From assembly GCF_003991905.1 (NCBI RefSeq), contig NZ_RSCL01000012.1, positions 181,848 to 245,847 of the forward strand: 64,000 nucleotides of DNA, in the 5' to 3' direction. Origin of the DNA: Dulcicalothrix desertica PCC 7102 (lineage in GTDB: Bacteria > Cyanobacteriota > Cyanobacteriia > Cyanobacteriales > Nostocaceae). Each line of letters begins with the position of its first letter. Position 1 is the stretch's first letter. The position numbers and the translations under genes are program-made. Below the pieces are notes generated by a model. That model did not search any database and had not been told where the DNA came from. It saw only the letters and a list, made by a program, of their open reading frames with translations. Of the stretch, positions 34,914 through 64,000 are shown piece after piece.

Positions 34914-37166
34914 ATGTATTTGCCAGTCAATGAATCAAATATTATTACAAGTGAGTCAAATCCCTTGCTTACAGTGGTATTAAGCGCCAAGCAGCAAGGT
35001 TACGACAATCAGGAAATAATACAAGAAGCGCAACGTGTCGCTGAATGTAATGGAGATTATGCTGGATACCAGTTTGTTTTAACGACGATTAATCAAATTG
35101 AATTTTTAGAGAAGCTTAATCGTCCAACAATTGCTTATAACCGTGAATTTTTGTTTAATGCTATTTACCAGTCTGTATTATCTGGTATGGGCAATGCTGA
35201 TATAATTAGCATATGCGGTGAGTATTGTAATCTGGACGATTTTGCATTTTGCCAGCTAACGCTTGAGTATATTTTGGTTAACCGCATTCCATCTGATAGC
35301 GAACAAGCTCATTTTCTGCGGACTGTTGACTCAAAAAGCAGTAAGGGGTTAGAGGTAGTATGCGAACTGTTCGTGGGATTGAAGAATATATACCTAACCA
35401 ATTTGCTTCGTAAGGTATTAGAAAATTATATTTATCAGCTATACGTAGTATCAAAGCCAGTCGAGTATTTTCTTGATTTACGTGAGAAAATAGCTGATAA
35501 TTGGGTGCGAGATAGATTAAAGCGTGTTGCAAGCCTGATTGCAAAAGAAACCTGCAAGGAATTAGATTTTGATGTTATTACGGGTGTTACTCCTACTTCG
35601 GCGCCGAAATCGTTAGAAGCATCAGATGCTGTTGATGAAATTATCAAATCCTCGCAGGTTGATTTGAATGAGGCTGGTGAGCTAGTTGTTAGCGTGCTGA
35701 AAGATTTTAAAATTGAGACTGAGTTTGTTGGCGCCAAAAGTGGTCCAACATTTAATCGGATTGAATTAAAACTGGCGCGCGGTACAAAATTTAGCAGTGT
35801 TGCCAACTTTGGTGATGACTTGGTGCAGCAGTTGGGAATGGAATTGGGAATTAAGATTCCCCCAATGGTCAGTTCGGTATGTGGGCGTACTGCAATTGAC
35901 ATTCCAAGGATTGACAGAGAGATTGCTTACTTCCGTGACCACGTTGATTTTGAAAACGAAATTGATATAAATCGCATTTGCATTCCTGGAGGTATAGATG
36001 TAAACGGCAACTTTCATTGGATAAATCTTTGTGACGATAATATTACCCATGTAATTGGTTCAGGGCGTACCCGTAGTGGTAAGTCACAGTTTTTAAAAGG
36101 AGGTGTATTATATTTAGCACGTAAGTATCCACCATCGGTTGTGCGGTTAGCGCTATCGGATGTGAAACGCGTAACGTTGGGTAAATTCAAGAATCTGCCA
36201 CATTTGATGGCGCCTGTTTGTAAAGATGCCAAGAGTACGGCTGATATGTTGGAATTTTTGGTAGCAGAAATGGAGTTACGTTATCAAGAGTTTGATATTC
36301 ATGAAGACGAGGGTATTGAAAATATTGCTCAGTACAACCGTTTTTATCTTGGTCGTAAGGTAATGCCGCGCGTAGTTTGTTGGGTTGATGAGGCGCCGGA
36401 AATGTTAGCTGACGAGGCTTACACCCAAAGAGTTGAGACAGCTTTATCAACATTACTGAGGAAAGCTGGCGCCGCTGGCATTCATCTACTTGTTTACTCG
36501 CAGCGTCCTGATAGAGATGCAATTAAACCACAAATACGGTCTAACTTTCCTTGCAAAACAGCATTTGCAGCCGCGCGACCCGAAGATAGTTATATTGCTT
36601 TAGCAGACGATAAAGATAGACGCGCGTTTCATTTACTTGGTCGTGGTGATTTTATTTTGCGTACTAACGAATTTGATGAGCGTTTACAGGCGCCGTACCT
36701 AGCAGATGATGAGGACGTAGAGTATTTTCGTTGCTTACTCTCTGAAGCAATAAATCAGCATGACCCGTATGTAGCATGGGAATCTGAGCTAACATTCGAT
36801 AATTTTGTTAAGCAATTATACTTAAATAAGGGATTAGTTGACCCAAATGCTGTTGATAGAATTGTTACTACCAAGGAAATAAAAATACAAGACTCGATTA
36901 AAAACAAACCATTAGATAATGCTGATTTGTATAAGCATGGAGAAAAAGTTGAGTTTCGAGCGAACTATGATTTTAACGTTGAATTTGATGCCGAGAAAAA
37001 GAATCAGATTTTAGGACTACATCGTCGTGGCTATGGCGCTGAAGAAATAGTTAAGGAGATATTCGGTGATTTACCTGGAGGTCGCAATGGGGATAGAAAA
37101 TTTACAAAACTTAAAAATGCTGTTGAGCGCTATATTCGTTCGTTGAACGAAGAAGGTAATTTATGA
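34914..37166 (+). CDS. FtsK/SpoIIIE-like DNA translocase
   Basis: 750 residues. The N-terminal ~260 are helical and unassigned; a middle part (about 265-375) has the beta/alpha pattern seen before FtsK motor domains. The motor has Walker A GSGRTRSGKSQFLKGG (about 381-391) and Walker B VVCWVDEAPEML (about 489-494), followed by AGAAGIHLLVYSQRPDRDAI. The C-terminus (YGAEEIVKEIFGDLPGGRNG, then FTKLKNAVERYIRSL) looks like a small winged helix. Such ATPases pump double-stranded DNA between cells or compartments; in actinobacterial plasmids a single FtsK-like protein drives conjugation. The ATG is preceded by a GGAGG site. The next gene overlaps its stop by 4 bp. Confidence 0.85.
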   Translation: MYLPVNESNIITSESNPLLTVVLSAKQQGYDNQEIIQEAQRVAECNGDYAGYQFVLTTINQIEFLEKLNRPTIAYNREFLFNAIYQSVLSGMGNADIISICGEYCNLDDFAFCQLTLEYILVNRIPSDSEQAHFLRTVDSKSSKGLEVVCELFVGLKNIYLTNLLRKVLENYIYQLYVVSKPVEYFLDLREKIADNWVRDRLKRVASLIAKETCKELDFDVITGVTPTSAPKSLEASDAVDEIIKSSQVDLNEAGELVVSVLKDFKIETEFVGAKSGPTFNRIELKLARGTKFSSVANFGDDLVQQLGMELGIKIPPMVSSVCGRTAIDIPRIDREIAYFRDHVDFENEIDINRICIPGGIDVNGNFHWINLCDDNITHVIGSGRTRSGKSQFLKGGVLYLARKYPPSVVRLALSDVKRVTLGKFKNLPHLMAPVCKDAKSTADMLEFLVAEMELRYQEFDIHEDEGIENIAQYNRFYLGRKVMPRVVCWVDEAPEMLADEAYTQRVETALSTLLRKAGAAGIHLLVYSQRPDRDAIKPQIRSNFPCKTAFAAARPEDSYIALADDKDRRAFHLLGRGDFILRTNEFDERLQAPYLADDEDVEYFRCLLSEAINQHDPYVAWESELTFDNFVKQLYLNKGLVDPNAVDRIVTTKEIKIQDSIKNKPLDNADLYKHGEKVEFRANYDFNVEFDAEKKNQILGLHRRGYGAEEIVKEIFGDLPGGRNGDRKFTKLKNAVERYIRSLNEEGNL

Positions 37167-41240: not shown

Positions 41241-43292
41241 TCATTTGGCAGTATCAGACACCAGGCGCCTTTTTGCATCTTCAATCCAATAGCGTTCATC
41301 AGGGTGTAGTGGGTCAGAAAACTCAAGACATTTGCGCCACTGCGATAGCGAGGAGCGTGTTTCTTTTTTATCTTCCAAGACTTGTGCTAACAAGCAGTGT
41401 GCTGAACCACGTTTTTCATATAAATCAATAGCTTGACGCAGAGGAACTTCCGCTTCAAGGTAAGTGTAAGTTTTTTTACCAAGTCTTGCTAGACCTAACC
41501 GTGCCCAACCTAAATTTTTTAACATAGTATACTTTTCTCGTTGGTCTTTCAGAGGTAGTTCTAAACCCTCCGAAAGTAAATTAGCTGCCAGAAGATATTC
41601 TTTATCCAAAATGTACCGTCGAGCTAACCTGCTGTATGCTTGAGGTAAACCTAAATTTTTGGCAGCATTATAATTGATACGGGCATAATTAAAATTATTC
41701 AGATCTTCGTAAACTTTTCCCCTGTTGTAATAGGCTTCTCTATAGTTTTGTTTGATTAAAAGCGCTAGGTTGTAGAACGGTAAAGCTGTATTTAATTTTT
41801 CTGCTTGGTAGTTCTCCAATCCAATGTTGTTTAACAAAACTGCTAGCGGTTCTGAAGTGAAAATAATTGGAATGGCGCCTATCGCCAAACCTGCAACTAC
41901 AGCAATCAAACTTAATCGTTTGCTTCGTCTCACTTGCAGTTGAGCTTTTTGCGAATTTTCAATAGCTTGTTTCTCCTGCTCTAAGGCGATTTCTGTTCTA
42001 GAAAGCACTTGTGAAAGCTCTAATTCTTGGCTTGCAACTAAAAACTGATAATCTTTATCACTCAAGCTTCTACCGTTTGCCCAGGTTAGGGCATTACGTA
42101 AATTATCTCCATGCAACAATTGTGATGTATCACGTTCTGATGCTTCCCATGCTGCAAATGCTTCGGCGTATGGTCTCATTTTTTGTAGTTCCTTTTCTAC
42201 CCAATTGTTATCAAAGACTGATTGGTAGATGCGGTTATAAACTTTAAGGTAGCCTGATTGCTTGATGACTAAACTCGATAACCGTAGTTTCATGATTTCT
42301 GGGGTATCATCTACGGCTAATTCTCCAACTTCTAAAACTTTTTGATATATTCCTAAAGACCAGCAAGCGAGTTGTTCATTATTTAATATACGGTCACGTA
42401 TTGTTTGTAAATGCTGCTGTTTGTCTTGTGCTAACCAATTCTCAATAATACGTGTGCGTATTGTTTGAGTAACACAATCTGCTTCGGCGCCGCTCTCAAT
42501 GTGTGATAAAGAAGATACAAGCTGACAAACCCATTGCGTTAAAAAGGGTTGCCCACCTGTCCAATGCAAAATTTCTTGAAGTACTGTATGCGGATGTGCA
42601 GCGATACCAATAAGTCCCTTTTCTAGGGGTTTTGCTTCATGTAATTGAAAACCTGTTAATTCTATTGCTTGGCTTTCGATGTTAAACGGTGTACGCTCTT
42701 TATCTGTAATTAAATCAGCAGGTGTTGCAACTCCTAATAGTACAAAAGTTAAACGGTTATATTTGGGTTTATCAGCGCGCTTATTATAACAGGAGCGGAT
42801 AAAGGCAAAAAAATCATCTTTAAAATTTAGATTTAAAACGCTGTCTATTTCATCGACAAATATAACGATATTTGATGTAATTTGTGATAATAATATTTCT
42901 TCAATAAACTTATTTAACCTCAAAGCTGGATGCATTATATTATACCCATGCCACCAGGTTTCAAGGTCTATATCTAAATTAAATTCACTTACCAAATAGC
43001 TAACAAAACCGCCATAAAATTCTTCTTCTGTAACTTCGTGTAGGCAAAGTTCACGCATTTCAAAGGCAATACAAGCAGTACCCTCATTTTTAAGGCGCCT
43101 CATTGTTTGTACACGTAGACTAGATTTACCCATTTGTCGGCAATTGAGTAGATAGCAAAATTGCCCAGCCTTTAAACTTGAGTAAAGTTGAGAGTCTGCT
43201 TGCCGTACAACATAAGTTGAAGCTTCTTCTGAAAGACTTCCCCCTACTTGATATATTGTATTTTGCCTTGAGTAGTTCATAGTTGTATACAA
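41241..43292 (-). CDS. AAA_35-like ATPase with membrane span and TPR repeats
   Basis: 683 residues. The N-terminal ATPase domain has the AAA_35 pattern: GGSLSEEASTYVVRQADSQL, Walker A CRQMGKSSL, Walker B IVIFVDEIDSV, LLGVATPADLI and GGQPFLTQ. An ~80-residue helical linker is followed by one membrane span (LSLIAVVAGLAIGAIPIIF, about residues 455-475), then TPR-like helices (ALPFYNLALLIKQNYREAYY). Such cyanobacterial proteins are predicted signalling ATPases linked to CHAT/vMAP conflict systems. The start MYTTMNYSRQ leaves ATG 43280 as an alternative. A relic of the same gene lies at 47557-47650. Confidence 0.85.
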   Translation of the reverse strand: MYTTMNYSRQNTIYQVGGSLSEEASTYVVRQADSQLYSSLKAGQFCYLLNCRQMGKSSLRVQTMRRLKNEGTACIAFEMRELCLHEVTEEEFYGGFVSYLVSEFNLDIDLETWWHGYNIMHPALRLNKFIEEILLSQITSNIVIFVDEIDSVLNLNFKDDFFAFIRSCYNKRADKPKYNRLTFVLLGVATPADLITDKERTPFNIESQAIELTGFQLHEAKPLEKGLIGIAAHPHTVLQEILHWTGGQPFLTQWVCQLVSSLSHIESGAEADCVTQTIRTRIIENWLAQDKQQHLQTIRDRILNNEQLACWSLGIYQKVLEVGELAVDDTPEIMKLRLSSLVIKQSGYLKVYNRIYQSVFDNNWVEKELQKMRPYAEAFAAWEASERDTSQLLHGDNLRNALTWANGRSLSDKDYQFLVASQELELSQVLSRTEIALEQEKQAIENSQKAQLQVRRSKRLSLIAVVAGLAIGAIPIIFTSEPLAVLLNNIGLENYQAEKLNTALPFYNLALLIKQNYREAYYNRGKVYEDLNNFNYARINYNAAKNLGLPQAYSRLARRYILDKEYLLAANLLSEGLELPLKDQREKYTMLKNLGWARLGLARLGKKTYTYLEAEVPLRQAIDLYEKRGSAHCLLAQVLEDKKETRSSLSQWRKCLEFSDPLHPDERYWIEDAKRRLVSDTAK

Positions 43293-43352
43293 ATGCGATT
43301 TTTATATAAATTTTTTAATGATTATAATCTCCCCTAACCCCCCTTATTAAGG

Positions 43353-43484
43353 CAGGGCTGTTTCATTCTAAAAAGAATAATACCAGGCGCCTATAAATCC
43401 GCCTTTACCGAACGAGATTTTAGTAGTTGGTTAACCGAACAATCATGGTTACAGCTTTTATCTCTAGAGAATGAAACAGCCCTG
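43353..43484. mobile_element. 132-bp MITE with 17-bp inverted repeats and 12-bp direct repeats
   Basis: The ends CAGGGCTGTTTCATTCT (43353-43369) and its exact complement (43468-43484) enclose 98 bp with no intact gene. The flanks are CCCTTATTAAGG at 43341-43352 and 43485-43496, an exact 12-bp duplication. That size is typical of IS4-type insertions, so the MITE was probably mobilised by such a transposase. It sits between two minus-strand ATPase genes. Confidence 0.85.
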
Positions 43485-43513
43485 CCCTTATTAAGGGGGG
43501 AAGAAGAGACGGA

Positions 43514-44854
43514 TTAACTTCCTAATCGTTCTCTAAAATATAAACAATAAATATGATAACGCGGTGCCGCACTATTGGTTTGCAGTTGTACTAATCCAAA
43601 ATCATATAATTTTACTGCATCTTCTAAATTCAAGTTTGAATTAAATTCAACAGGATTATCTGCTAAAAGTATAGTTTTAAAAGCCGTTACTAATGTAGAG
43701 TTTGACTGTAAATAACGCCAATGCCTTTCTAAATGATTTCGATAAATTCCAGAAGCAGTAGGCGCCGATACTAATAAATTTTCTAAACTCATATCTTGAC
43801 GTGCTATTGTCTGTATCGCTTTTGCGACTAAATAAGGATGTCCTCCTACCATTGCCATTAGTTGTTCAACTTGAGTATTTCCCCAGTTTAATTTATATTG
43901 TTGCGCCAAAGATTTTATTTGTTCACTAGTAAAATCTGTTAATTTAATTTCTGTACCCGCATTAAACGGTGACTGGTTAATATTTAGCTCGCTATATATT
44001 TGTGTATGCAACATCAATAACCGTAGCTGGCGCCAAAGAGGCTTAGTTTTTGCGTCTTCGTGCCAAGTTCGTAACATTCCCAAAAACTCTCCAGCTATTG
44101 CACCAAATTGAAACAGTCTATCTACTTCATCTAAAGCAACAGCAAAAACATCATCTCCAGATAAGACATACTTTTCAAAGTAGGTTCGGCATTTAATCTT
44201 ACAGTTACCCAAACTTTTACGCCAATGTTCTTCTACAGGTTGCTCTAACTTTAATGTCTCAGCAATACTCGTAATAAACCACTGCAAAAACTTATCCAAA
44301 CTACTAAAATCTTCAGCTACTGCATCGCGTAGGTTTAAAACAACTGTACGATATCCTTGTTGTTCAGCATAATACATTACCCGTGACATCAACTCAGTTT
44401 TACCAAACTGTAACGGGGCCTGAATTCGCAACAAGGCGCCTCTGTTGCATATTTCCTCATAACAGCGAGACTCAACGGGAGGGCGCTCTATATAAGGTTC
44501 TTCGGAAAATTCCATTGTTTTTGGAAGTTGTTCTGAGACTATTGATGTATTTCCATTTTTATAACCTTGTTTTTCCCACTCTCGTTGCAGCGCTTGACGG
44601 AAATTGGTCTTTTTAACCTCTTCCCCTAATGCGTCAGAAAGATTGTGCCATAATTTACCACCCACTTCCCCAATGTACTTAACAGCCAAATGACATTCTG
44701 AAGCAATAGTCTCATAAGTTTTACCGTCCCAGGCACCTCGTAGTACCTGTACCTCAGCATTACCAAGATGCTTGCGAGTGACAGAGAAAACCAGAGCATC
44801 TACAAGGTTTTGCGTCTGTGCCCAATCTAATTCTAATTTTAAGTCTGATTTCAT
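43514..44854 (-). CDS. vMAP-like HTH plus AAA_35 ATPase
   Basis: 446 residues. The N-terminus (ALVFSVTRKHLGNAEVQVLR, then GAWDGKTYETIASECHLAVK and KLWHNLSDALGEEVKK) matches the winged HTH found at the start of vWA-MoxR-associated proteins (vMAP). The ATPase part has Walker A IQAPLQFGKTELM (the loop is modified), Walker B FAVALDEVDRLF and GGHPYLVAKAI. vMAP proteins are proposed parts of NTP-dependent conflict systems together with vWA and MoxR proteins and effectors such as caspases; no vWA or MoxR gene is in this window. It reads in the same direction as the AAA/TPR gene, with the MITE between. Confidence 0.8.
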   Translation of the reverse strand: MKSDLKLELDWAQTQNLVDALVFSVTRKHLGNAEVQVLRGAWDGKTYETIASECHLAVKYIGEVGGKLWHNLSDALGEEVKKTNFRQALQREWEKQGYKNGNTSIVSEQLPKTMEFSEEPYIERPPVESRCYEEICNRGALLRIQAPLQFGKTELMSRVMYYAEQQGYRTVVLNLRDAVAEDFSSLDKFLQWFITSIAETLKLEQPVEEHWRKSLGNCKIKCRTYFEKYVLSGDDVFAVALDEVDRLFQFGAIAGEFLGMLRTWHEDAKTKPLWRQLRLLMLHTQIYSELNINQSPFNAGTEIKLTDFTSEQIKSLAQQYKLNWGNTQVEQLMAMVGGHPYLVAKAIQTIARQDMSLENLLVSAPTASGIYRNHLERHWRYLQSNSTLVTAFKTILLADNPVEFNSNLNLEDAVKLYDFGLVQLQTNSAAPRYHIYCLYFRERLGS

Positions 44855-51728: not shown

Positions 51729-54700
51729 ATGAACAAGATTAGACTGATTGGTGCTGACATTTTAGATGAGTCTACTCAATTCGCCTTGAATGAAGCGACT
51801 TTGATTTTACAAAACTATTTAAGCGAGAGCATAAAAGACGGAAGTTTATTAGAAACAGTTAATTTATCCTTTGGTAACCAAATTGATGCTTCTAAGTTAG
51901 AAAACTTGTTAGGGCAATGGGCAACTGGCAACTTTAAAGAACTTCCAACGATTGAAATCCGCCCAGCCGCAGAAATGAATGGAGCTAACGGGGCTTTTGC
52001 TAAAGCAACCAACAATATTTATCTATCTTGGGAATACATTACACAAAATACTTCTTATCCCCAAGCGATTACTAATGTTTTATTAGAAGAAATTGGGCAT
52101 TTTGTTGATGCCCAAATTAATGCATTAGATAGCCCTGGGGATGAAGGGGCTATTTTCTCTGCACTGGTTCGAGGGGAAACGCTGGATGAAGGGCGGTTAC
52201 AGCAGTTGAAAGCAGAGAATGATACAGCTACTATCACTTTGGATGGGCAAGTCATCGAGATAGAGCAGGCAGATAATGAGGTCACGATTTCCGGAACCAT
52301 TCTTTGGACGGATAGTGCTATTCCTAGTAAAACGCACCCAGTTCGTGAGGCAACCGTAAAAATCTGGGATGAAGACCTAGGTCTTGATACGCTGATCGCA
52401 ACTGTTTATACTGACTCTCAAGGACGTTACTCAGCTAGCTTCGACAACAATGAGCCGTTTGGTCAAGGCAAGCGGGACATATATATAGAAGTACTGGCTG
52501 ATGGACTAGCACACCATGTGGATGGAGTGGTGGGACTTAATGCTACAACTTATTCTCAGACAACTAATACTACTAATGAGATCCCGGATGGTGCTAACAC
52601 TATAAACTTTACTATTGGCAACGGTACTGACGCAGAGCGTGCGTTTTCAATTAGTGATGCATTGTATGTAGGAAAAGTTTATGCAGACACTGTACGTGGA
52701 AAACTGCCAACGCCGAGATTGAAGGCTAGGTTTCCAGATACTAATACGGCATACACCAAATCTACAAATAAGGATTTACTTATCCGATCTGGAGACAGTT
52801 TAGATTGGGATGTAATTCTGCATGAGTATGGTCATTTCCTTGCAGACATTGACAATCTAGCCGATTCCCCTGGTGGTAAGCACATAGCAGGTTACAGCAG
52901 TATTACTGGCGAGCCGACTATACCTATTCCAGCTTCTGGGAAATCTAAAGGCATCCGTATCGCGTGGGGTGAGGGACTCGCAACTTATTTGGGGATTGCT
53001 GCTCAGTATGTCGCCGCTGACGCAGGGCTGTTGCCGAATGTACCAAATGTGGGCGATCCGATTTACACGGATACAATCGATCAAACCGCTAAACATGATT
53101 TAGAAAATAAACCGAGTCCCAGTAATGCCAATAATGCCAATAATCCTGGTAATAAAGGTGAAGGCGACGAGGCATCAGTGTTTCGGATATTGTGGGATCT
53201 CGCAGACGGAAAAAACGAACCTCATGATGGAATTGAAATTGAAATTGCATTACTATCTGGGCACAAGGTATCTGGCCACGAGGGACTCTACTACATCCTC
53301 AACAACGAAATATCTGATCTGGATCAACTCGATGATGTTTGGGATTATTTCTACGGTATTTCAACCGATGCTGAACGCACGAAGTTTGGAGCAATCTTTG
53401 AGGAGTACGGTGTATCACCAGAACCTAACAAAAGTAAGTTAATTGGAAAAACCTTTAAGGTTAATGAAAGTGACCCCAATAAGATTCCACAGTTTACATG
53501 GAATGTGAACAATAACGATGCCAATGACGATTTTCAAGTAATCATCTTCAATGAAGACTTTTCACGTCGTGTGGTGGACACTAAAGATAATATAAACCCT
53601 GAAAATATAAATACAAACACGTGGACTCCCACCTTAGAACAGTGGACTCGCGTTACAAACAATCAAGGAAAGTATAATTTTATTGTTGCTGGTAGTGACA
53701 CTATTCCTGATCCGAAGTCTGGTGTTGACCCTAACTTTCTTTCTACTGGTTCTTATTGGAGTGGTGCCTACACTTTTTCTGTAGGACCGAGCATAGGTCT
53801 TCAACCCTTGAAGAATGGTTTAGGTCAGATACTATCTGCCATCCAGACGGCTCTAACTGAAAAGATTTTTGGGGCAACGGGTCTTCAGAATATTAGTAGT
53901 TTGAATGGCATTCCGCTGCTTGGAGACACACTTAAAACTGCCACTGGGGCGCTATTCATAAAGGACTTATCTATTCAAATTGAGAAAAAATTTACTGATA
54001 AATTGAAGGTGGCGGAGAATGCATCTGTTGATGAGATACAGGAAGCTTTCTTTGAATTGTTTGGTCCTTCTGGGTTATTTGGGGCAACTGGGCTGCTCAA
54101 AGACTCTAACGATGCTGGAGATGATATTACTCAAGAAGATATTATATATACTAGAGATGGCTCCTTAGTTAAATTTAATTTCAAACTAGGCGGCACGAAT
54201 AAATTAGAAACTTCGCTGCCGTCCAAAATTGGCTTTGGTTTGCCACAGCTTGGTTTAGAACTTGGTGAAAATGCTAAGGCAGGTGTTGACCTTGACTATA
54301 CATTCGATTTTGGTTTCGGTATTGAAACTGCTACTAATGAGTTCTTCTTCGACACCTCGCCTAATAAAGATTTGAGTATCTCACTCAAACCATCGCTACC
54401 AAAGGCAAAAGCCACACTTGGGTTTCTTCAAGTTGATGCAAAAGATATTGGTAGCCAACTTGACTTTTCGCTCAACTTAGAAGATGGCAACGATAACCAG
54501 TTAACAATTGGCGAACTGAACAATAACAGCTTTACAGTTTCACCAGAAGGTTCTGCTGACATTAAGCTTAATCTCCTCTCTAGCATTAACGGTTTAAAGG
54601 GGTTGCCTCAACTTAGTGCAGATTTGATTGTAAACTGGGATTTTGTTCAGAATGTAGCGCCAACAGTTGCCTTTAAGGATGTAGAGTTAGACTTAGGCTC

Positions 54701-57700
54701 ATTTTTAAGCGACTTCGCTGGCCCAGTTTTGGAAGATGTTAATAAAATCACTAAACCTATAAAACCAGTTATTGATATTTTAACTAAAAAGATTGATCTC
54801 AAGGTCATTGAGCTTAATCTTTTAGATATAGGAAAGAAACTTGGGTATATAGATCAGTCAGATATTAACTTTATAAATTCAGTTGACAGCATTATCAAAA
54901 TTGTCGATGGTATTTCAAAATTTTCAAATAGTAGTGATACTAAAATCAATCTAGGTAGCTTCAATCTGGGTGACGAGGCAGACATCCGCAAACCCGATTT
55001 TCTGCTAAGTAACGTTGACAATCTAAATATTATTAGCACCGCTCCTAGTGCTAGTGACCAAATTAATAATCTTGGTAACGTTAACGAAAAACAAATTATT
55101 AATAGCCTTATTACAATACCTGGTGAAGGACTGAAATTCCCCTTGCTGACCGAACCAATGCAGGCTTTCAAATTACTACTAGGTAAAGATATTCCTCTTT
55201 TTACCTATGATTTACCGCAGTTGAAGTTTGATTTTGGATACACTCAGTTCTTCCCCATTGTAGGCCCGTTCGGGGTTAGAATCGGAGGAAACATCGGTGG
55301 AGAAGTAGATTTGGCGTTTGGGTATGACACCAAGGGGTTAAGGGATTTCAGCAAATCTGGCGACGCAACGGATATTTTTAACGGTATATATGTTAGCGAC
55401 CGTGCTAACGCTGATGGAACTGGAGATGATATTGCGGAAGTTAAGTTTAATGTTGGGCTTGAAGCTTCTGCTGAGTTGAACGTAAAAGTAGTATCAGCTG
55501 GGGTTGGTGGTGGAATTTACGGCAATGTTGACTTTAACCTTAACGACCCTAACAAAGACGGAAAGGTTTATTTTGACGAAGTGAAGGCTTTGATTCAACA
55601 CGACCCCCTTTGCCTATTCGATGCCTCTGGTAAAGTAACTGCTGGTTTGAACGCTTATTTCACAATTGGGGTAAGACCATTTCAAATCAGAAAGCGCTAC
55701 GACAGCCCTAGAAGAACTTTAGCCGAATTTAATAGTAAGTGCGACGATATCCATAACGGTGGCAATGGTGGTACACAAAATGTGCCGATATTGGCTACAG
55801 ATATTGGTAGCGGCGCCCTGCGGTTGAACATGGGGTTAAATGCGGCAGCGCGCGTATATGGAAATATCATCGATGATGCTGAAATTTTTACGATTGAGCA
55901 TAAATCAGGGTCAATTGGTAGTGAGAAAGTCTTGATTGCTGCATTTGACACGAGCAAGGAGTACAACGTCGCTAGTAAGATTGTTGCTAACGGGGGAGAG
56001 AAAAACGACATCATTCAGCTAAAAGATAACGTTTTAACATCGGCAGAACTGGCAGGTGGTAACGGTGATGATTTGATTATGAGTGGGAATGGTAATGATT
56101 CTCTAGATGGTAATAGTGGTTTCGACCTGTTAGATGGTGGCTTAGGCAATGATACATTGCGTGGTGGTGATAATGATGACTGGCTAGTTGGAGGAGCAGG
56201 CGCCGATGTTCTCGATGGTGGTGCTGATAACGATACAGCCAGCTATGAAACTGCCACAACAGGCATTTCGCTCAATTTAGCTACTCTTGAAGCTACGGGG
56301 GATGCACAGGGAGATGTGTTCGTGTCAATTGAGCAATATGAGGGTTCCCCATATGATGACACTTTAATAGGCGATGCTACTAACAATATATTAGGTGGAC
56401 TAGGTGGTAATGACTTGCTCTCTGGAGGAGATGGAAATGATTTTCTGGAGGGTGGTGATGGAAATGACACATTGCACGGTGATGCTGGCGATGATTTCTT
56501 AGTTGGAGGAGCAGGCGCCGACTCGCTTTATGGTGGTTCAGGTATCGATAAAATCAGCTATAGCACTGCCACAGAAGGCATATCGCTGAACTTAGCCACA
56601 GGCGAAGCTACGGGAGAGGCACAGGGAGATAAATTTGTGTCAATTGAACAATATGAGGGTTCCCCGTATAATGACACCTTGATTGGAACAGACGCTGATG
56701 AAGTTTTGATTGGTGGCGGTGGCGCCGATATCCTACAGGGAGGATTAGGGAATGATACTTATGAGCTAGATGCCCAGACAATTATCGAAGGTCTAGCTCG
56801 TGCTGCGGGCAGTCGAATTCAAGATACCAACGGCGCCAATGATATCCTTAATCTCTCAAACATTACCCTCTCCTTATCAGGTTTAGCTTCTGGTCAAGCT
56901 GGACTGGCACGATTGGGCAGCACACTATTAATAGATATTAATAAAGATGGAGTTGCAAATCAGGCTGATGACCTATCTATTGATAACTTCTTTTCGCCAA
57001 GAAATTTCTCCATTAATGAAGTCACCATTACCGAAGGCAATAACGGCGCCACCAACGCTTTATTCACTATTAAAGGTTTAGCTGGGACTGCTGGTGCTGG
57101 CTTTATTGAAACAGTAGCTAACCTTTCTGGTACTGATATTCTCAACTTCCTCTCGACGGTAACAATAAACTACGCCACTGCTGATGGCACAGCTACAGCT
57201 ACTACAGATTACAATCCTACCAGCGGTCAGTTAACCTTTGCCCAAAACGAGACAGAAAAAATTATTAGTGTACAGGTTATTGGTGACACCAATGTAGAGT
57301 CTGACGAAACTTTTTTTGTCAACCTAAATACAGATAACAACACGGATATTACTGGCTTCCAAACCGTTGGAACAATCCTTAATGATGATCTTCCATCGAT
57401 TAATGTCTCGTTTAGCAATGCTCCTAACTCTCCCTTTAGTGTGGGGTTGGATCCCCGTTCCATCGCCCTAGGAGACTTCAACAAAGACGGCAACCAGGAC
57501 TTAGCTGTAGCGAATAATCAGTCTGATAACATTTCAATACTGTTGGGAGATGGAAAAGGTAGCTTTGGCACTGCCGCTAACTTTGGCGCAGGAGACGCGC
57601 CCTTGTCCGTTGCTGTCGGGGACTTTAATGCAGACGGGAACCAGGATTTAGCTGTGGCGAATTATGGTTCACCTGCGACAAGCTTTAGAAGCAACATTTC

Positions 57701-58634
57701 GGTCTTGTTAGGAGATGGCACAGGTCGTTTTGGTACTCCTACCAACTTTAACGCGGGAAGCAGCTCCTTTTTTGTGACTGTGCAAGACCTGAACGCAGAC
57801 AGATTAAGCGACTTAATTGTGGTAAACTTAGGTTCTGATAACATCTCAGTGCTTTTAGGAAATGGCACTGGTAGCTTTGGCAATCCTACCAACTTTTATG
57901 TAGGAGACTCTCCTAGATCCGTTGCTGTGAAAGACCTAAACGCAGACGGCTTCCTTGACCTAACTGTCGCAAACTTTGACTCTGCTAACGTCTCAGTGCT
58001 GTTAGGAAATGGCACAGGCAGCTTTGGCAACATCACTAATTTTAATACGGGGGGCAAACCAACTTCCGTAGCTGTAGAAGATTTGAACGCAGATGGTATC
58101 CCAGACCTAGCTGTGGCAAACTATAGCTCTAGCAGCGATATATCTGTGCTGTTAGGGGATGGTTTTGGCAACTTTGGTACTGCCACCAACTATAACATCG
58201 GCGCCGCTTCTACTTTCGTTACCATAAAAGATTTAAACGCAGACGGTATCAAAGACTTAATTGCACCGAACTATTTCTATAACAAAGTCTCGATGCTGTT
58301 TGGAGATGGCACAGGCAGCTTTGGCACTGCCACCAACTTTGATGCAGCAGGAGACGAACCTAGATTTGTTGTCGTGGAGGACTTCAACAAAGATGGTAAA
58401 CAGGATTTAGCAATGCCACATTGGTTCTCGAATAATGTCTCTGTGCTACTCAACACCACGGTAAATGCACCAATTGGAGCAGATAGCGGCGCCACTTTGA
58501 ATGGCAGCAGTAGCATAAACAGAAATATGATTCTCGGCAATGACAGTGATGATATTTTAGCTCGTGGCAAAACCAGTAATATTATTACAGTTGGTGCAGG
58601 CAGCAATCAATCTTTGTTACCAAAGTTAGCGTAA
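51729..58634 (+). CDS. Giant RTX-type protein: metalloprotease-like region, Calx-beta and FG-GAP repeats
   Basis: 2301 residues. The N-terminal region has [10 protein letters not shown] (about 119) and, further on, [12 protein letters not shown] (about 363), a HExxH-type zinc site with the second His. A long beta-rich, low-Cys central part follows, with an EF-hand-like loop [15 protein letters not shown] calcium-binding nonapeptides ([15 protein letters not shown]) occupy about 1440-1680 in two near-identical halves that share a [10 protein letters not shown] motif. A Calx-beta domain (about 1757-1887) and six FG-GAP units ([27 protein letters not shown], about 1900-2247) follow. It is probably exported by a type I system and calcium-stabilised. 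No transporter genes are in the window. Confidence 0.85.
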
Positions 58635-58879: not shown

Positions 58880-61333
58880 ATGAGTTCAGCGTTAAGTTTA
58901 AGTAATGTTGTAGGCGTTGGGTTAGCTCAAGATAATATTCAATCCACGTTGAGTAATACTACTTATGTAGGTATTGACTTTGGCACAAGTACAACTACTA
59001 TAAGTTATTCGATAATTGGTAATGGTGATGTACCGATTGAGACATATTCAATGTCCGTGCAACAGTTGCTTGAGGATGGGCGCCTTTATGAATCACACTT
59101 AGTGCCAACTGTGATTGCATGGTATAAAGAGCAACTATTTATAGGTGTAGGCGCCTCATCATTAAAAGGTCAATTACAGCAAGGAATTAATTTATGGGCT
59201 TCATTTAAGATGGGGCTGGGTGAGGATTTAGGGTCTGTTTACTACAATAGTAAATTACCTACAGGACATCCAATTGCGACGATTGAAAAACCATTAGATG
59301 CAGCGCGAGTTTTCTTCAGCTTTTTGAAAAATCAAATCGAGGACTATATTGAACAACACAATTTGCCATCCCGTATTCGTTATTCGGTATCTGTACCTGC
59401 ATCTTTTGAATCTAACCAGCGTGCAAGTTTACTATCAGCGTTATCTAATGCGGGAATTGAGCTAGAAGGCAAATTATTAATTGATGAACCAAATGCGGCA
59501 TTTCTGAGTTATTTAGCAGAATCCAGTTTAAATGGACTAGGTAGTTTAAATATACCAGAATCATCACCATTACAAATTCTTGTATTTGACTGGGGCGCGG
59601 GCACGCTAGATGTATCAATACTAGAAATTGCTAGAAGTGAAACAGGTGGACTAACTTGTAAAAACTTAGCTATATCTAAGTTTACAGCATTGGGTGGGGA
59701 TGACATCGATAAGCGAATTGTAACTGACATATTATTACCACAGTTATTTAAGCAGAATAATTGCAGCATTGACGACTTTAGAAGTGCCGACTTAAGCAAG
59801 CGAATTATTCCTAAGTTGCAGAAGACAGCCGAGGAATTAAAGATATTGGCTTGTAAATCGGTGTCGTCACAAATGGTATCTAACCGATTGCCTTCAATAG
59901 CAACTAGTAATGAAAGGTTAGAATTGAATCGCTCCATAGATATAGATTTGCCCACCAAGAAATTAAATTTATTAAACCCAAGCATGAGTTACAGCGAGTT
60001 TAATGAAGTGATGGACAGTTTTTTTGTTGGTGCAGAAACTGGCGATATTAGCGTGTTTGCGCCAATTGAATCGAGTTTACGTAAAGGTGAGTTAAATAAT
60101 TCGGACTTGGACTTAATCTTATTTATTGGTGGCAGTAGCAGCAACCCTTATGTGCAAGTTGCTTTGGCAAACTACTTTACAGGTGTTGAGATCGAAATAC
60201 CTCGTGATTTGCGCTGCCATGTTTCTCAAGGCGCCGCTGTTAACTCATTATTGTTAAACGGATTAGGTTTGACGTTGGTACGTCCTATAGTCTCCGAACC
60301 TATCTTATTAATTACCCGTAATGGATTGCAAACGCTAATTGCAGCAGGTACTGAGATATCTCGCATTAACAAGGAATTTGATTTTTGCACTGGAGATAAC
60401 GAACAAGAGAAAATTCAGATTCCCTTATGTGTCGGTAACGAAAATAAAATATTGACGGTGATTACTATTGATGCCGATATTTATTCTGAAACATTCGCTC
60501 CTAATACATGGGTACGAGTAAATTGTAGATTGAGTGAAGATAAGGTGTTATCTGTGACAGCAAGCATTGATGGTAATGAAGTTGTTTCGACATTAATTAA
60601 CCCATTTGCGAATCGAGAGCTAACTACGGAAGAAAGATTAGTGTTTAAAGCTGAGAAAATGGCTAACGAGATGGCAGCACAAAATGGCGGTAAGCCCGCT
60701 GTTCCAGAGTTGTTATATTTAGTTGAGGCTTGTGTAGAGGCTAAAGATTATTTGCGTGCGGCTGAAACCTTGGAATTGGTGCAAATGTTGGATAAAAATA
60801 AGCGGTACGAGACAAACATTGGTTGTTACTATGCTTGGGCTGATAAACAAAAACAAGCGCTTGCTTGGTCTCAAAAAGCTTATGAAAAAGAGGCAAGTGC
60901 AGTTAATGCCGCTAATTTGGCACTATCTTATTATCGTAATGGCGATAACCATCAGTATGAATCATTAATGGAAAAATCTTTATCATTGGATCAAAATTTT
61001 ACCTTTACCTTAGTTTCATATGGCAGATATTTAATGGCTAAAGAAGCTAATCGTAGAGCTAGAGGTCGGGAGATGGTGCAACGGGCTTTTGATTCTCTAT
61101 ATAAATTATTTTTAGATAATAATTTATATTTATTAGATTATCATAAATTGATTGATGCCGCTGAGTTATTGGGCAAGAATGATGTGGTTAAAGTAGTCAA
61201 GATGCGTCAGCTTGAATTAAACACTAAAGCTAAATTTTATGATGAAGACAGCTTGCTAGCATCGCAAATAGGAAGTAATCAAAATATTAATAGTAGATTA
61301 ATTCCTCCATCTAATTCATTTAAATTATTTTAA
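58880..61333 (+). CDS. Hsp70-like ATPase with C-terminal helical domain
   Basis: 817 residues. The Hsp70/actin-fold ATPase spans about residues 25-460: phosphate-1 motif VGIDFGTSTTTIS (about 31), RYSVSVPASFE, LIDEPNAAFLSYL, phosphate-2 motif LVFDWGAGTLDVS (about 234) and the adenosine loop LFIGGSSSNPYVQ (about 414). A beta-like region (about 470-590) stands in for a substrate-binding domain, then helices with TPR-like spacing (ETLELVQMLDKNKRYETNI, YAWADKQKQALAWSQ). It is longer than DnaK and not a DnaK orthologue. It is first in a three-gene operon with a helicase. Confidence 0.85.
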   Translation: MSSALSLSNVVGVGLAQDNIQSTLSNTTYVGIDFGTSTTTISYSIIGNGDVPIETYSMSVQQLLEDGRLYESHLVPTVIAWYKEQLFIGVGASSLKGQLQQGINLWASFKMGLGEDLGSVYYNSKLPTGHPIATIEKPLDAARVFFSFLKNQIEDYIEQHNLPSRIRYSVSVPASFESNQRASLLSALSNAGIELEGKLLIDEPNAAFLSYLAESSLNGLGSLNIPESSPLQILVFDWGAGTLDVSILEIARSETGGLTCKNLAISKFTALGGDDIDKRIVTDILLPQLFKQNNCSIDDFRSADLSKRIIPKLQKTAEELKILACKSVSSQMVSNRLPSIATSNERLELNRSIDIDLPTKKLNLLNPSMSYSEFNEVMDSFFVGAETGDISVFAPIESSLRKGELNNSDLDLILFIGGSSSNPYVQVALANYFTGVEIEIPRDLRCHVSQGAAVNSLLLNGLGLTLVRPIVSEPILLITRNGLQTLIAAGTEISRINKEFDFCTGDNEQEKIQIPLCVGNENKILTVITIDADIYSETFAPNTWVRVNCRLSEDKVLSVTASIDGNEVVSTLINPFANRELTTEERLVFKAEKMANEMAAQNGGKPAVPELLYLVEACVEAKDYLRAAETLELVQMLDKNKRYETNIGCYYAWADKQKQALAWSQKAYEKEASAVNAANLALSYYRNGDNHQYESLMEKSLSLDQNFTFTLVSYGRYLMAKEANRRARGREMVQRAFDSLYKLFLDNNLYLLDYHKLIDAAELLGKNDVVKVVKMRQLELNTKAKFYDEDSLLASQIGSNQNINSRLIPPSNSFKLF

Positions 61334-61351
61334 TTGGAGATATATTTTTAC

Positions 61352-62518
61352 ATGTCTTGGTTAATTCCCTATCCCAAACTTGATTCCGAACAACGTGAGA
61401 CTATTGACCGCATTCTTGCTAACAAGGGACGAAACTTTTTTATTAAAGGTTTTGCTGGTTCGGGTAAATCTATTGTGTTACTGCATATCTTAATTAAAGC
61501 CAAACAACAAAATCCGGCATTACGGGTATGTGTAGTAGGCTATACTAATAGTTTAGTTGATATGTATAATGCTAGTATCCCACCCGATATCAAGAATGTT
61601 TCTACATCAAAATCTATTAATAACTGTGGCGTTGATGCAAAAACTTATAGTGCCTTCGAGAAAAGTCCTCAAACCTACGATATGATTTTAGTAGATGAGG
61701 TGCAGGATTTATCAGAGAAGGTTGTTTCACTATTGCACAGTCAATGTCATCAATTAATAGTAGCTGGTGATGGCGCCCAATCAATTTATGAGCATGGAAT
61801 GCCTGTAGCTGCTATGGTATCATTAATTAATGCTGTTACGATTGAATTAAAAATATTACATCGCTTGCCCAACAAGATTATTGAGATAGTCAAGGCAATT
61901 TTTCCAAGTAATGAACTTGAGAAAGCATCCCGTTCTAAATTACGGAATGTTGATGTAACATTAGCAACAGCATTAGATGTGAATGAAGAAATTAAATATG
62001 TATTTGAAACTGCTTCAAGTTATGCTAACTCTCGTGTAAGTACGGCTATATTGTTACCGCAAAAAAGGTTTATCTTGGGTTTTATCGATGCTGTTTTAAA
62101 TTTGCATAATTTTGATGAATGGCAAGTTAAAAAAAAGAAATTTGGAGAAGACTTTGATAATTTAAATAACTATTTATCCAAATGCGGGTTAAGCATACAA
62201 TATTTAGGTGGTGGCTATGGAGATTTAAATGATACATCTAAGGTACATTTACTTACTTACCATAGTGCTAAAGGGTTAGATTTTGAAACAGTATTAGTGC
62301 CTAATGTATGCGAAAATATAAATATTTGGGGACGCAAAGATATAGCTAATAACTTATTTTATGTAGCATTAACAAGAAGCCGAATCAACTTGTATCTATC
62401 TTATACAGGTAAACCCCATCCTTACATAACCCGTATACCAGATAATTTGTTAAGAAGAGTCGAATTACCAATTAAAAAGCAAGTTGAAGTTGCTACAGAG
62501 GAGGAATTATTTTTCTAA
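61352..62518 (+). CDS. Minimal superfamily 1 (UvrD-like) helicase
   Basis: 388 residues from ATG 61352 (MSWLIPYPKLDSEQRETI); an upstream in-frame start at 61334 is less likely. Motifs: Q-like PKLDSEQRE, Walker A KGFAGSGKSIV, Walker B YDMILVDEVQDLS, motif III VAGDGAQSIY, motif V LLTYHSAKGLDFETVL and motif VI NNLFYVALTRSRINLYL. It lacks the inserted 1B/2B domains of UvrD (about 700 residues), so it is a small DNA or RNA translocase or NTPase. The ATG follows the Hsp70 stop by 18 bp, and the TAA overlaps the next ATG (TAATG), so the three genes are coupled. Confidence 0.85.
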   Translation: MSWLIPYPKLDSEQRETIDRILANKGRNFFIKGFAGSGKSIVLLHILIKAKQQNPALRVCVVGYTNSLVDMYNASIPPDIKNVSTSKSINNCGVDAKTYSAFEKSPQTYDMILVDEVQDLSEKVVSLLHSQCHQLIVAGDGAQSIYEHGMPVAAMVSLINAVTIELKILHRLPNKIIEIVKAIFPSNELEKASRSKLRNVDVTLATALDVNEEIKYVFETASSYANSRVSTAILLPQKRFILGFIDAVLNLHNFDEWQVKKKKFGEDFDNLNNYLSKCGLSIQYLGGGYGDLNDTSKVHLLTYHSAKGLDFETVLVPNVCENINIWGRKDIANNLFYVALTRSRINLYLSYTGKPHPYITRIPDNLLRRVELPIKKQVEVATEEELFF

Positions 62519-63555
62519 TGAAATATCTTTTACCGCTTAGTTATAATGAATTTTTGTTATGGTATCGTCGTTCTGAATTGAAGATAATGAAATTTAGGTT
62601 GATACCAATTTTTGATGAAGATTTTGCTGATGATACGTCTAAATTAGATAAAGTTGCTACACGAGTAGTGGAAGCAGTGCCCAATTATGAGGAAGATTAC
62701 GAAGTACTAATTGCACAAGTTGAAGATATTTATAAAGTGGCGCCTTATGACTTTGATGAAAGTAAACTAGCATTTATTAATATTTCTATACATAATTTGA
62801 AATGTGTTTATCCAATTACCGAACGCGGTGAAAAATTGCTTCAGGGACGAATTGATAACAGCATTAACTTAGCCAAGCCGATATTTGAAAATTATGTTAA
62901 TGCTTATGTTCAACGGCAACAATCATCTTTATCATTGTTAGGTGGTGCCGCATTACTAAAAATTGCTAAATTAGATGTACATAAATATCAAGATACAATA
63001 AAACTGCTCCAAGATGAGGCTTTGTCTGGTACATCTAAAAACAGCCGTGACGAAAAATTTCCTCTAAATGGCACGTTTCTCGAAAACTTACTATGCTATA
63101 GTCGTCATGACCCAATACCAAATACTAATATTGGCTACTTTTTGGATTTTGGGGTAATCGTTAGCAAGCTGTACTCAGGTAAAAATGATGTTACACATTT
63201 GCTAGATGACTATCGTTCGTGTTTGAAAGAAATCACCAGTAAAAACAAAAATAAAAATGTTAAATTTGACTATTTGTTGAAAAAAACGGATGATATAATA
63301 AGTTCGTTTGATACTACTTTAGATATGAAATTAAGCGTTGCATCAATAATAATTTTTTTGAAACTGCAATCCGAGCTTTACCAACACCAAGATTTAAATA
63401 AAACTAGCTTTAAGGAATTGCTAGGCAGTTTAGCTCAAACGCGCGAACGTGACATCGCTTTAGCATTATGGTTGGTGGGGGTATGCTTTGGATTTGAGTA
63501 TTTTTGTACAAATTATTATGAAGCAATCCAACCTGGGTTCTTCTTGGATTTTTAG
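62518..63555 (+). CDS. Unknown protein, third gene of the Hsp70-helicase operon
   Basis: 345 residues, largely helical (LGGAALLKIAKLDVHKYQDT, KLSVASIIIFLKLQSELYQ). No signal peptide or obvious catalytic motif. The start overlaps the helicase stop by one base (TAATG), a strong sign of joint production. It could be an adaptor, sensor or effector for the Hsp70 and helicase. I do not recognise it. Confidence 0.7.
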   Translation: MKYLLPLSYNEFLLWYRRSELKIMKFRLIPIFDEDFADDTSKLDKVATRVVEAVPNYEEDYEVLIAQVEDIYKVAPYDFDESKLAFINISIHNLKCVYPITERGEKLLQGRIDNSINLAKPIFENYVNAYVQRQQSSLSLLGGAALLKIAKLDVHKYQDTIKLLQDEALSGTSKNSRDEKFPLNGTFLENLLCYSRHDPIPNTNIGYFLDFGVIVSKLYSGKNDVTHLLDDYRSCLKEITSKNKNKNVKFDYLLKKTDDIISSFDTTLDMKLSVASIIIFLKLQSELYQHQDLNKTSFKELLGSLAQTRERDIALALWLVGVCFGFEYFCTNYYEAIQPGFFLDF

Positions 63556-63683: not shown

Positions 63684-64000
63684 ATGAATGAACGGCAAAA
63701 GCAAGTCTATACTAACCTCATCACTAGTTTGCTAAGTTGTTCTAGTGGGGAAGAACAAGATATTTTAGCTGCAAACCAGCATTTATTGGATGCTGACTTT
63801 TTAGAGACATTGGAAGAGTTTGCAGAAAAATTCTCAGAGCAGAAAATTGAAAATACAGCGGATTGGTTGAGAAATTTGGCGAGTCAAATTGCACAAACCA
63901 TAAATATAGTTCCCCAATCTCCTCAAACACAAGGGGAAACAGTAACCTCACTCAAAAATAACGACTCTCAAGAAGACTTCCTCTTTCAAGTATTGCAGGC
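63684..64000 (+). CDS. Likely CHAT/TPR-type protein, N-terminal part
   Basis: An open frame from ATG 63684 runs to the window end (105 codons). The sequence MNERQKQVYTNLITSLLSCS, GEEQDILAANQHLLDADFLE and ENTADWLRNLASQIAQTI is the typical start of cyanobacterial CHAT-domain TPR proteins, which I recall beginning with this helical region. No CHAT catalytic residues are in the window. It is 128 bp downstream of the Hsp70-helicase operon and may be linked to it. Confidence 0.7.
   Translation, partial: MNERQKQVYTNLITSLLSCSSGEEQDILAANQHLLDADFLETLEEFAEKFSEQKIENTADWLRNLASQIAQTINIVPQSPQTQGETVTSLKNNDSQEDFLFQVLQ

Follow-up and report, generated by a model that had tools for sequence, protein, structure and literature searches.

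A rare three-gene unit of an Hsp70-like ATPase, a minimal superfamily 1 helicase and a third protein as a candidate anti-phage or anti-plasmid system

Why would a cyanobacterium keep an Hsp70-like ATPase, a very small superfamily 1 (SF1) helicase and a third, unplaced protein in a single tightly packed row of genes, and what would the three do together? The question is raised by a stretch of 64,000 nucleotides (the window) from the 11.4-Mb genome of Dulcicalothrix desertica PCC 7102 (contig NZ_RSCL01000012.1, positions 181,848 to 245,847), in which an earlier note, made from the DNA letters alone, had pointed out this trio and proposed that its products could sense and act on foreign nucleic acid. 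Judged by sequence comparison, the three genes are one real conserved functional unit, and this unit is rare. We read it as an accessory system, probably horizontally moving and most likely directed against phages or plasmids, with a probability of about 0.62; as such, it would sense and act on foreign nucleic acid. The features on which the argument rests are the following (window coordinates).

58880-61333, plus strand: Hsp70-like ATPase gene, 817 amino acids
61352-62518, plus strand: minimal SF1 helicase gene, 388 amino acids from its ATG
61448-61471, plus strand: helicase motif I (Walker A), GFAGSGKS
61691-61711, plus strand: helicase motif II, VDEVQDL
62518-63555, plus strand: third gene, 345 amino acids, undescribed family, partner of the helicase
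62518-62877, plus strand: N-terminal alpha/beta domain of the third protein, residues ~1-120, with a strand-helix-strand start (AlphaFold2)
62878-63552, plus strand: all-helical C-terminal domain of the third protein, residues ~121-345 (AlphaFold2)

The tight coupling described in the earlier note is exact to the base. The Hsp70 stop codon TAA (61331-61333) is followed by 18 bp containing GGAG and then by the helicase ATG at 61352, the helicase reading frame having a longer alternative TTG start at 61334. The helicase stop codon TAA (62516-62518) overlaps the ATG of the third gene in the sequence TAATG.

Conservation of the three genes as a unit

Scanning genome contigs with a helicase profile confirmed 140 places and left 79 loci (numbered L below), 43 of which form one clade (L043-L083, L093 and L108); the remaining 36 are 13 loci of a sister group and 23 with other UvrD-type helicases. 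Within the clade, an Hsp70 gene of the same orientation immediately precedes the helicase gene in 38 of the 41 loci with enough DNA (the exceptions being L058, L067 and L081), and a member of the third family directly follows the helicase in all 37 loci with enough DNA. Median gaps are 5 bp between Hsp70 and helicase and 2 bp between helicase and third gene, the latter gap being at most 12 bp in 32 of the 37. Neither Hsp70 nor the third family was found at the 13 sister loci or the 23 other UvrD-type loci. The count of 37 rests on a second-round third-family profile that includes those genes, its unbiased part being the first round, in which 4094 open reading frames (ORFs) were searched with a profile of 27 sequences. 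Each of the 13 downstream genes kept out of that profile was recovered (E 8e-107 to 1e-7); the only further hits with E values up to 10 were fragments of this gene in L045 and L076. Thus, the synteny across distant bacteria that the earlier note had proposed to look for, with the third protein always present, is what these loci display.

The clade is mostly made up of Bacteroidota and cyanobacteria, with further members in Verrucomicrobiota, Lentisphaerota, Proteobacteria and others. The full trio occurs in Cyanobacteriota, Bacteroidota, Verrucomicrobiota, Lentisphaerota, Pseudomonadota, Thermodesulfobacteriota and Myxococcota. Our analysis defines an undescribed protein family and a trio of genes that has stayed linked in seven or more bacterial phyla. 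The loci from Campylobacterota (L067) and Chlorobiota (L058) lack the Hsp70 gene. Despite this breadth, the unit is rare. The Hsp70 subfamily (E <1e-60) was found in 3 of 386 cyanobacterial genomes, at four loci, each beside helicase and third gene, and strong helicase matches came from 8 of the 145 genomes searched in the window's own family and, with the centre included, from 2 of 296 Bacteroidota genomes. Related copies are present in several Calothrix genomes. A remnant of the third gene (L006 1498-1713, 62% identity over 47 residues) was seen in the cyanobacterium G091, which has no Hsp70 of the subfamily.

The same contig of D. desertica carries a second complete trio 17.9 kb downstream (G000:C12:258556-263270; L004 3557-8271). 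The third proteins of the two copies are 69% identical, and in the helicase tree the second copy stands nearer than the window copy to those of other Calothrix genomes.

Across 34 loci, the pairwise distances of each trio protein rise and fall with those of the other two (r 0.96, 0.91 and 0.93; none of 2000 permutations reaches these values), Mantel permutations of this kind leaving shared ancestry in the co-variation. Nearest neighbours agree between the trio proteins in 24, 23 and 20 of the 34 loci. In addition, dN/dS (the ratio of nonsynonymous to synonymous substitution rates) is 0.03-0.28 in three pairs of copies, which indicates purifying selection on all three genes, the third gene having values ~2 to 5.5 times those of its partners.

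We infer that helicase and third protein act together because their genes are always adjacent and often overlapping, and that they would form the constant core of the unit. The Hsp70 would be a usual yet replaceable front end, since there are three exceptions, such as L067, where HamA and HamB precede the helicase, and L081, where another gene does. In L081 (7154-13010), the place of the Hsp70 is taken by two proteins, one of 187 amino acids that looks like a PLD-type nuclease and one of 748 amino acids.

The gene that follows the window trio is of CHAT type, as the earlier note had seen, and probably not a fourth component. It encodes a 2593-amino-acid TPR-CHAT protein (CHAT match 6.6e-53), starts at window position 63684 and continues in L003 to 13313, and it lies with others between the two trios. 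We do not count it in the unit because no CHAT gene follows the third gene of the second trio; there, an SDR-like gene does (by eye), and the neighbours of relatives differ as well (by eye). The TPR-CHAT gene is perhaps a conflict gene of its own. Elsewhere in the window, a 2301-amino-acid protein with RTX, FG-GAP and Calx-beta matches lies upstream of the trio (51729-58634), two adjoining minus-strand AAA_35 proteins (AAA-like domain, 9.9e-27 and 2.2e-112) occupy 41241-44854, and a 750-amino-acid FtsK/SpoIIIE-type ATPase (34914-37166; 2.2e-22) sits among small genes of the same strand, perhaps a mobile element.

The three proteins

The earlier note had described an actin-fold ATPase that is not DnaK, a small UvrD-like helicase without 1B and 2B domains, and a protein that could not be placed; the family searches agree on all three, the loss of 1B and 2B being deduced from length.

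The helicase matches UvrD_C (2.7e-14) and UvrD-helicase (4.9e-9) in Pfam, and also Viral_helicase1 and AAA_19. By Pfam and alignment, it has the SF1 core motifs of the UvrD/PcrA/Rep class: GxxGxGK, DExQD, GDxxQ, HSxK and TR are nearly uniform among 47 sequences, some of them cut by contig ends, with G33, G36, G38 and K39 of motif I and D115, E116, Q118 and D119 of motif II identical in all 47. It scores 44.6 bits against the full-length uvrD equivalog model, whose cut-off is 1144, and at 388 amino acids it is probably too short for full 1B and 2B domains. Its best PADLOC matches are the GajB models (2.1e-17).

The ATPase belongs to Hsp70 by Pfam (5.9e-24, residues 147-602) and scores only 61-79 bits against four DnaK equivalog models of NCBIfam with cut-offs of 648-1019. 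PADLOC gave no family for it up to E 1. At D33, K110, E203, D237 and T242, every letter present in the alignment of 43 sequences is the same residue (40-41 sequences, the rest being gaps: K110 in 40; E203, D237 and T242 in 41); we take the last four to be equivalent to the catalytic Lys, Glu, Asp and Thr of DnaK. We divide the protein into a nucleotide-binding domain (NBD), a region like the beta part of the substrate-binding domain (SBD) and a helical C-terminal part, the borders outside the Pfam match being our own reading. The C-terminal part may be TPR-like and replace the usual lid, as faint repeat matches hint (TPR_10, E 0.31; a PilW model at residues 612-735, E 0.011). In the motif DFGAGTCD, 33 of the 43 sequences have a cysteine, which is unusual for Hsp70 at that position; the window protein has a leucine there (residue 243).

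The third protein belongs to an undescribed family, one that the Pfam, NCBIfam and PADLOC models used do not recognise. Up to E 1, it matched no Pfam family, PADLOC model or PDB entry, and NCBIfam returned a single chance-level match (E 0.018). No housekeeping family was matched, and stray hits were judged to be chance: FAD_SOX in 2 of 33 family members (best E 1e-4) and heterodisulfide reductase (E 0.06). The AlphaFold2 model has a mean predicted local distance difference test score (pLDDT) of 89.7. The best-conserved stretch, A..L.G...G, lies in the C-terminal domain (A316 in 29, L319 in 26 and G321 in 31 of 33 rows). Searching the fold with Foldseek gave nothing below E 0.001 in PDB or BFVD, the best BFVD probability being 0.54 for a phage G protein (E 0.7). 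A contig scan with the single third protein as query found no relative, whereas the helicase alignment did find relatives.

Defence neighbourhood and competing explanations

Where the unit lies bears on what it is for. Of the 244 neighbours within 6 kb of 30 loci, 205 were scanned with the 2023 version of PADLOC in two batches (the listed families being the top 25 per batch), and 20 neighbour proteins, two of them from G076, were scanned in detail, 4 of the 20 without a match at E 1e-20. At 8 or more of the 31 loci, the unit has defence genes as neighbours:

L054, directly downstream of the trio, and L059, directly upstream: PglZ and BrxL (bacteriophage exclusion, BREX)
L067 6135-12465: HamA and HamB (Hachiman), ending 43 bp before the helicase; the third gene follows and there is no Hsp70
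L070: SspB, SspC and SspD
L063: DrmD-like SNF2 helicase and type III methyltransferase
L069: type I restriction enzyme and PDC-S68
L075: UG19-type reverse transcriptase
G076: retron-type reverse transcriptase

The row of Hachiman genes, helicase and third gene in L067 is possibly a hybrid system. A UvrD-family neighbour in L062 matches GajB and DRT-helicase models and was left out of the count; batch matches to SspH and PDC-S05 were not assigned to a locus. For comparison, we chose 14 of these contigs and took from each a single 13-kb region at another place (126 ORFs), generic UvrD loci having been dropped as a control because they are too housekeeping-biased. The neighbours of the trio match 153 PADLOC families from 112 proteins and 171 from 93, versus 45 from 126 in the control regions. 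The excess of defence genes beside the trio is suggestive but falls short of proof.

Several observations weigh against a defensive role. No defence neighbour was established for 23 of the 31 loci (205 of 244 neighbours scanned, among the matches listed), and the Haemophilus copy (L057) is flanked by what look by eye like housekeeping genes, so that the link is not universal. The 45 control families are themselves PADLOC matches, including a clear type III restriction enzyme and matches to DpdF, PsyrT and PDC-S05 that were not traced, and on the 14 paired contigs defence genes stand at 5 trio loci and at 1 or more control regions, too few for significance. Beside the trio in the window, no classical defence system was identified, the window as a whole not having been scanned with PADLOC. 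Moreover, the shared ancestry left in the co-variation of the three proteins limits what it can say of a common function.

A different role would be in DNA repair or nucleoprotein quality control, with helicase and Hsp70 clearing stalled or damaged complexes from the cell's own DNA or RNA and taking no part against invaders. Every part of the trio is compatible with such work, and the 23 loci without an established defence neighbour count in its favour. A repair function sits poorly, however, with the patchy distribution given above (3 of 386, 8 of 145 and 2 of 296 genomes for the Hsp70 and helicase searches), with the copies beside BREX, Hachiman and Ssp genes, and with the raised dN/dS of the third gene, and we consider it unlikely.

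The same neighbours could instead mean that the trio is a helper module serving other defence systems such as BREX, Hachiman or Ssp. The BREX genes directly beside it in L054 and L059 fit this idea, as does the Hachiman pair of L067 in the absence of an Hsp70. So do the loci of the sister group (L084-L098 without L093 and L097), whose helicases of 342-407 amino acids are 22-29% identical to that of the window and, in 12 of 13 loci, are directly followed by a partner of 588-731 amino acids, with an Hsp70 in none of the 13. By gene order and sequence starts, judged by eye, the sister pair is embedded in BREX-like operons at L084, L086 and L089 (partner 640-731 amino acids); it stands directly before a PglZ-like gene in L084, with further genes in between in L086 and L089 (by eye). 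Yet no such partner was established at 23 of the 31 loci, where the trio would probably often work alone, which makes a mere helper quite improbable. Finally, that the trio is a selfish, addiction-like maintenance module of plasmids or islands, as the plasmid copy described next might suggest, is very hard to credit when a search of 72,556 plasmid records with the Haemophilus helicase gave a single match at E 1e-5, no toxin-like small gene lies in the unit and several Calothrix genomes hold related copies.

We therefore keep to the reading of the trio as an accessory anti-phage or anti-plasmid system, one that probably moves horizontally. The Haemophilus helicase falls, placed to group only, inside a fully supported group that otherwise holds Bacteroidota, one Campylobacterota and a doubtful Roseburia. 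An alphaproteobacterial plasmid carries, between two transposase genes and a few kb from a RelE/ParE-type toxin gene, genes annotated as Hsp70 family protein, AAA family ATPase and hypothetical protein, in that order. The Roseburia locus (L065, a contig of a metagenome-assembled genome assigned to Bacillota) is not taken as evidence of transfer because the contig may be mis-binned; its genes read by eye like Bacteroidota, and its helicase has a close relative in Bacteroides heparinolyticus.

Among viral contigs, a scan kept 80 loci, the top match having 25% identity over helicase residues 99-358, and a second scan, with the partner protein of L269 (see below), found none. Phage matches to the Haemophilus Hsp70 (23 records) were judged to be ordinary chaperones, with 22-26% identity among the listed matches and none covering 80% of the query; among the 15 listed, three are named DnaK, two HscA and the others are unannotated. 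The E. coli genomes searched had no DNA match to one 3.9-kb Haemophilus stretch.

Possible mechanism and known systems

How such a unit might work can be sketched tentatively, and the scheme as a whole may well prove wrong. The small helicase would engage single-stranded ends or replication and recombination intermediates of invading nucleic acid. The Hsp70-like protein could serve as an ATP-cycled clamp, its lid seemingly replaced by protein-binding repeats, that would bind the invader's proteins on the helicase substrate or gate the helicase, and the third protein might be the adaptor or effector joining the two. An immune clamp of this type is plausible because remodelling of replication complexes by host Hsp70 is part of the life cycle of phages such as lambda. 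If the trio is indeed a phage defence, it would provide an example of an Hsp70 with a conserved ATPase site that itself takes part in immunity, and of a core of helicase and partner that occurs with Hsp70, Hachiman and BREX genes.

The sister pairs offer a lead to what the partner might do. The model of a sister partner (mean pLDDT 76) has an alpha/beta start and a helical rest, like the third protein, and its best Foldseek match is the ADP-ribosylserine hydrolase ARH3 (E 0.05-0.09, probability 0.92-0.95, template modelling score 0.18 by query and 0.35). Its C-terminal domain aligns with a profile of 24 ARH sequences at E 0.0016, versus 0.25 for the reversed decoy, with an hhalign probability of only 16. 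Pfam did not report the ARH family PF03747 for 11 sister partners up to E 10, and searching with the sister profile matched 1 of 296 Bacteroidota genomes and did not deepen the alignment. The third family is linked to the sister partners weakly (E 0.009-0.018, hhalign probability <5). Direct homology of the third protein to ARH found no support: the ARH profile gave no signal (E 0.29-0.35) and no ARH stood among the 50 Foldseek matches listed. Its N-terminal domain bears a weak likeness to ADP-ribosyltransferase (ART) folds (Foldseek, DarT, probability 0.33, E 2.4); homology to DarT (PF14487) found no support either, at E 0.63 or worse for a profile of only 6 sequences.

A cyanobacterial pair, L269 (37-2851), joins an SF1-type helicase of 327 amino acids to a partner of 608, whose N-terminus is a true match to the ADP-ribosyltransferase family 2CompART (PF22546, 87.6 bits), in 1 of 244 genomes. 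This partner aligns in register with the start of the third family at E 0.02 overall, the best of 20 shuffled decoys reaching 0.018; its C-terminal part alone gives E 0.006-0.009, with no decoys for comparison, and HMMER gave E 4 even with filters off. Since these links to ARH and ART are weak or within the decoys, we keep the ADP-ribose reading of the third protein as no more than a lead. In its fullest form, which we regard as unlikely, the core would be a portable pair of a minimal SF1 helicase and a partner of ART-like and ARH-like domains, fitted with Hsp70, Hachiman or BREX front ends. Once the helicase had opened the invader's nucleic acid, the partner would bind ADP-ribose there or attach it, and the Hsp70 would act as a gate, which would make the whole an ADP-ribose-linked immune device under chaperone control.

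Does the trio correspond to a system already named? The earlier note had recognised none, and this impression stands: PADLOC matched neither the Hsp70 nor the third protein, and our search of open-licence papers recognised no description of the trio. By term search, a BREX census makes no mention of Hsp70 or UvrD (PMC12839542), and none of five terms sought occurs in the main text of DefensePredictor (PMC13092281).

Partial likenesses are several. As far as the accessible part of the preprint goes, the multi-gene defence system ARMADA includes ArmD, a GajB-like UvrD helicase; ArmD carries an N-terminal RelE-like domain and acts together with a methyltransferase and with helicases resembling YprA and BrxHII, with no Hsp70 named in that part (PMC12458937). 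GTPase-tubulin-HSP70 systems, as portrayed in the portion of the source used here, place an HSP70 in a multi-gene conflict system, as in the trio, but centre on GTPases, some with tubulin-like proteins (PMC7159879); Pfam found neither in the trio. Predicted phage-conflict loci centred on ADP-ribosylglycohydrolase (ARG) domains combine these with peptide-binding chaperones; their ARG domain is expected to be active and a helicase-Hsp70 core is not seen in the excerpt (PMC9503650), whereas the trio's likeness to ARH is indirect. Similarly, Gabija has a UvrD-like helicase as a core part, in keeping with the GajB matches above, but the trio pairs a core-only helicase of 388 amino acids with the third family plus Hsp70, and no GajA partner was matched in the Hsp70 or third protein (PADLOC up to E 1).

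In the sister pair embedded in BREX-like operons (L084, L086 and L089), an SF1 helicase of 343-351 amino acids is followed at once by an alpha/beta plus all-helical partner; it differs from the trio in lacking Hsp70 and in its larger partner. In the window, Pfam scans of 12 proteins showed neither PglZ nor BrxC. The nearest published combination is CoCoNuT type III, in which, according to the part of the description drawn on here, a predicted defence operon encodes both CnuD, a protein with Hsp70-like NBD and SBD and with HEAT-like repeats, and the SF1 helicase CnuH; CoCoNuT has a McrB-type GTPase, a McrC homologue, a UPF1-like helicase and Hsp70-like domains with degenerate ATPase motifs (PMC11090510). 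Pfam found no McrB in the trio genes or the CHAT gene that follows them. In contrast to CoCoNuT, the trio has no McrBC and combines a minimal UvrD-like helicase with an Hsp70 whose key residues are conserved and with an unrelated third protein.

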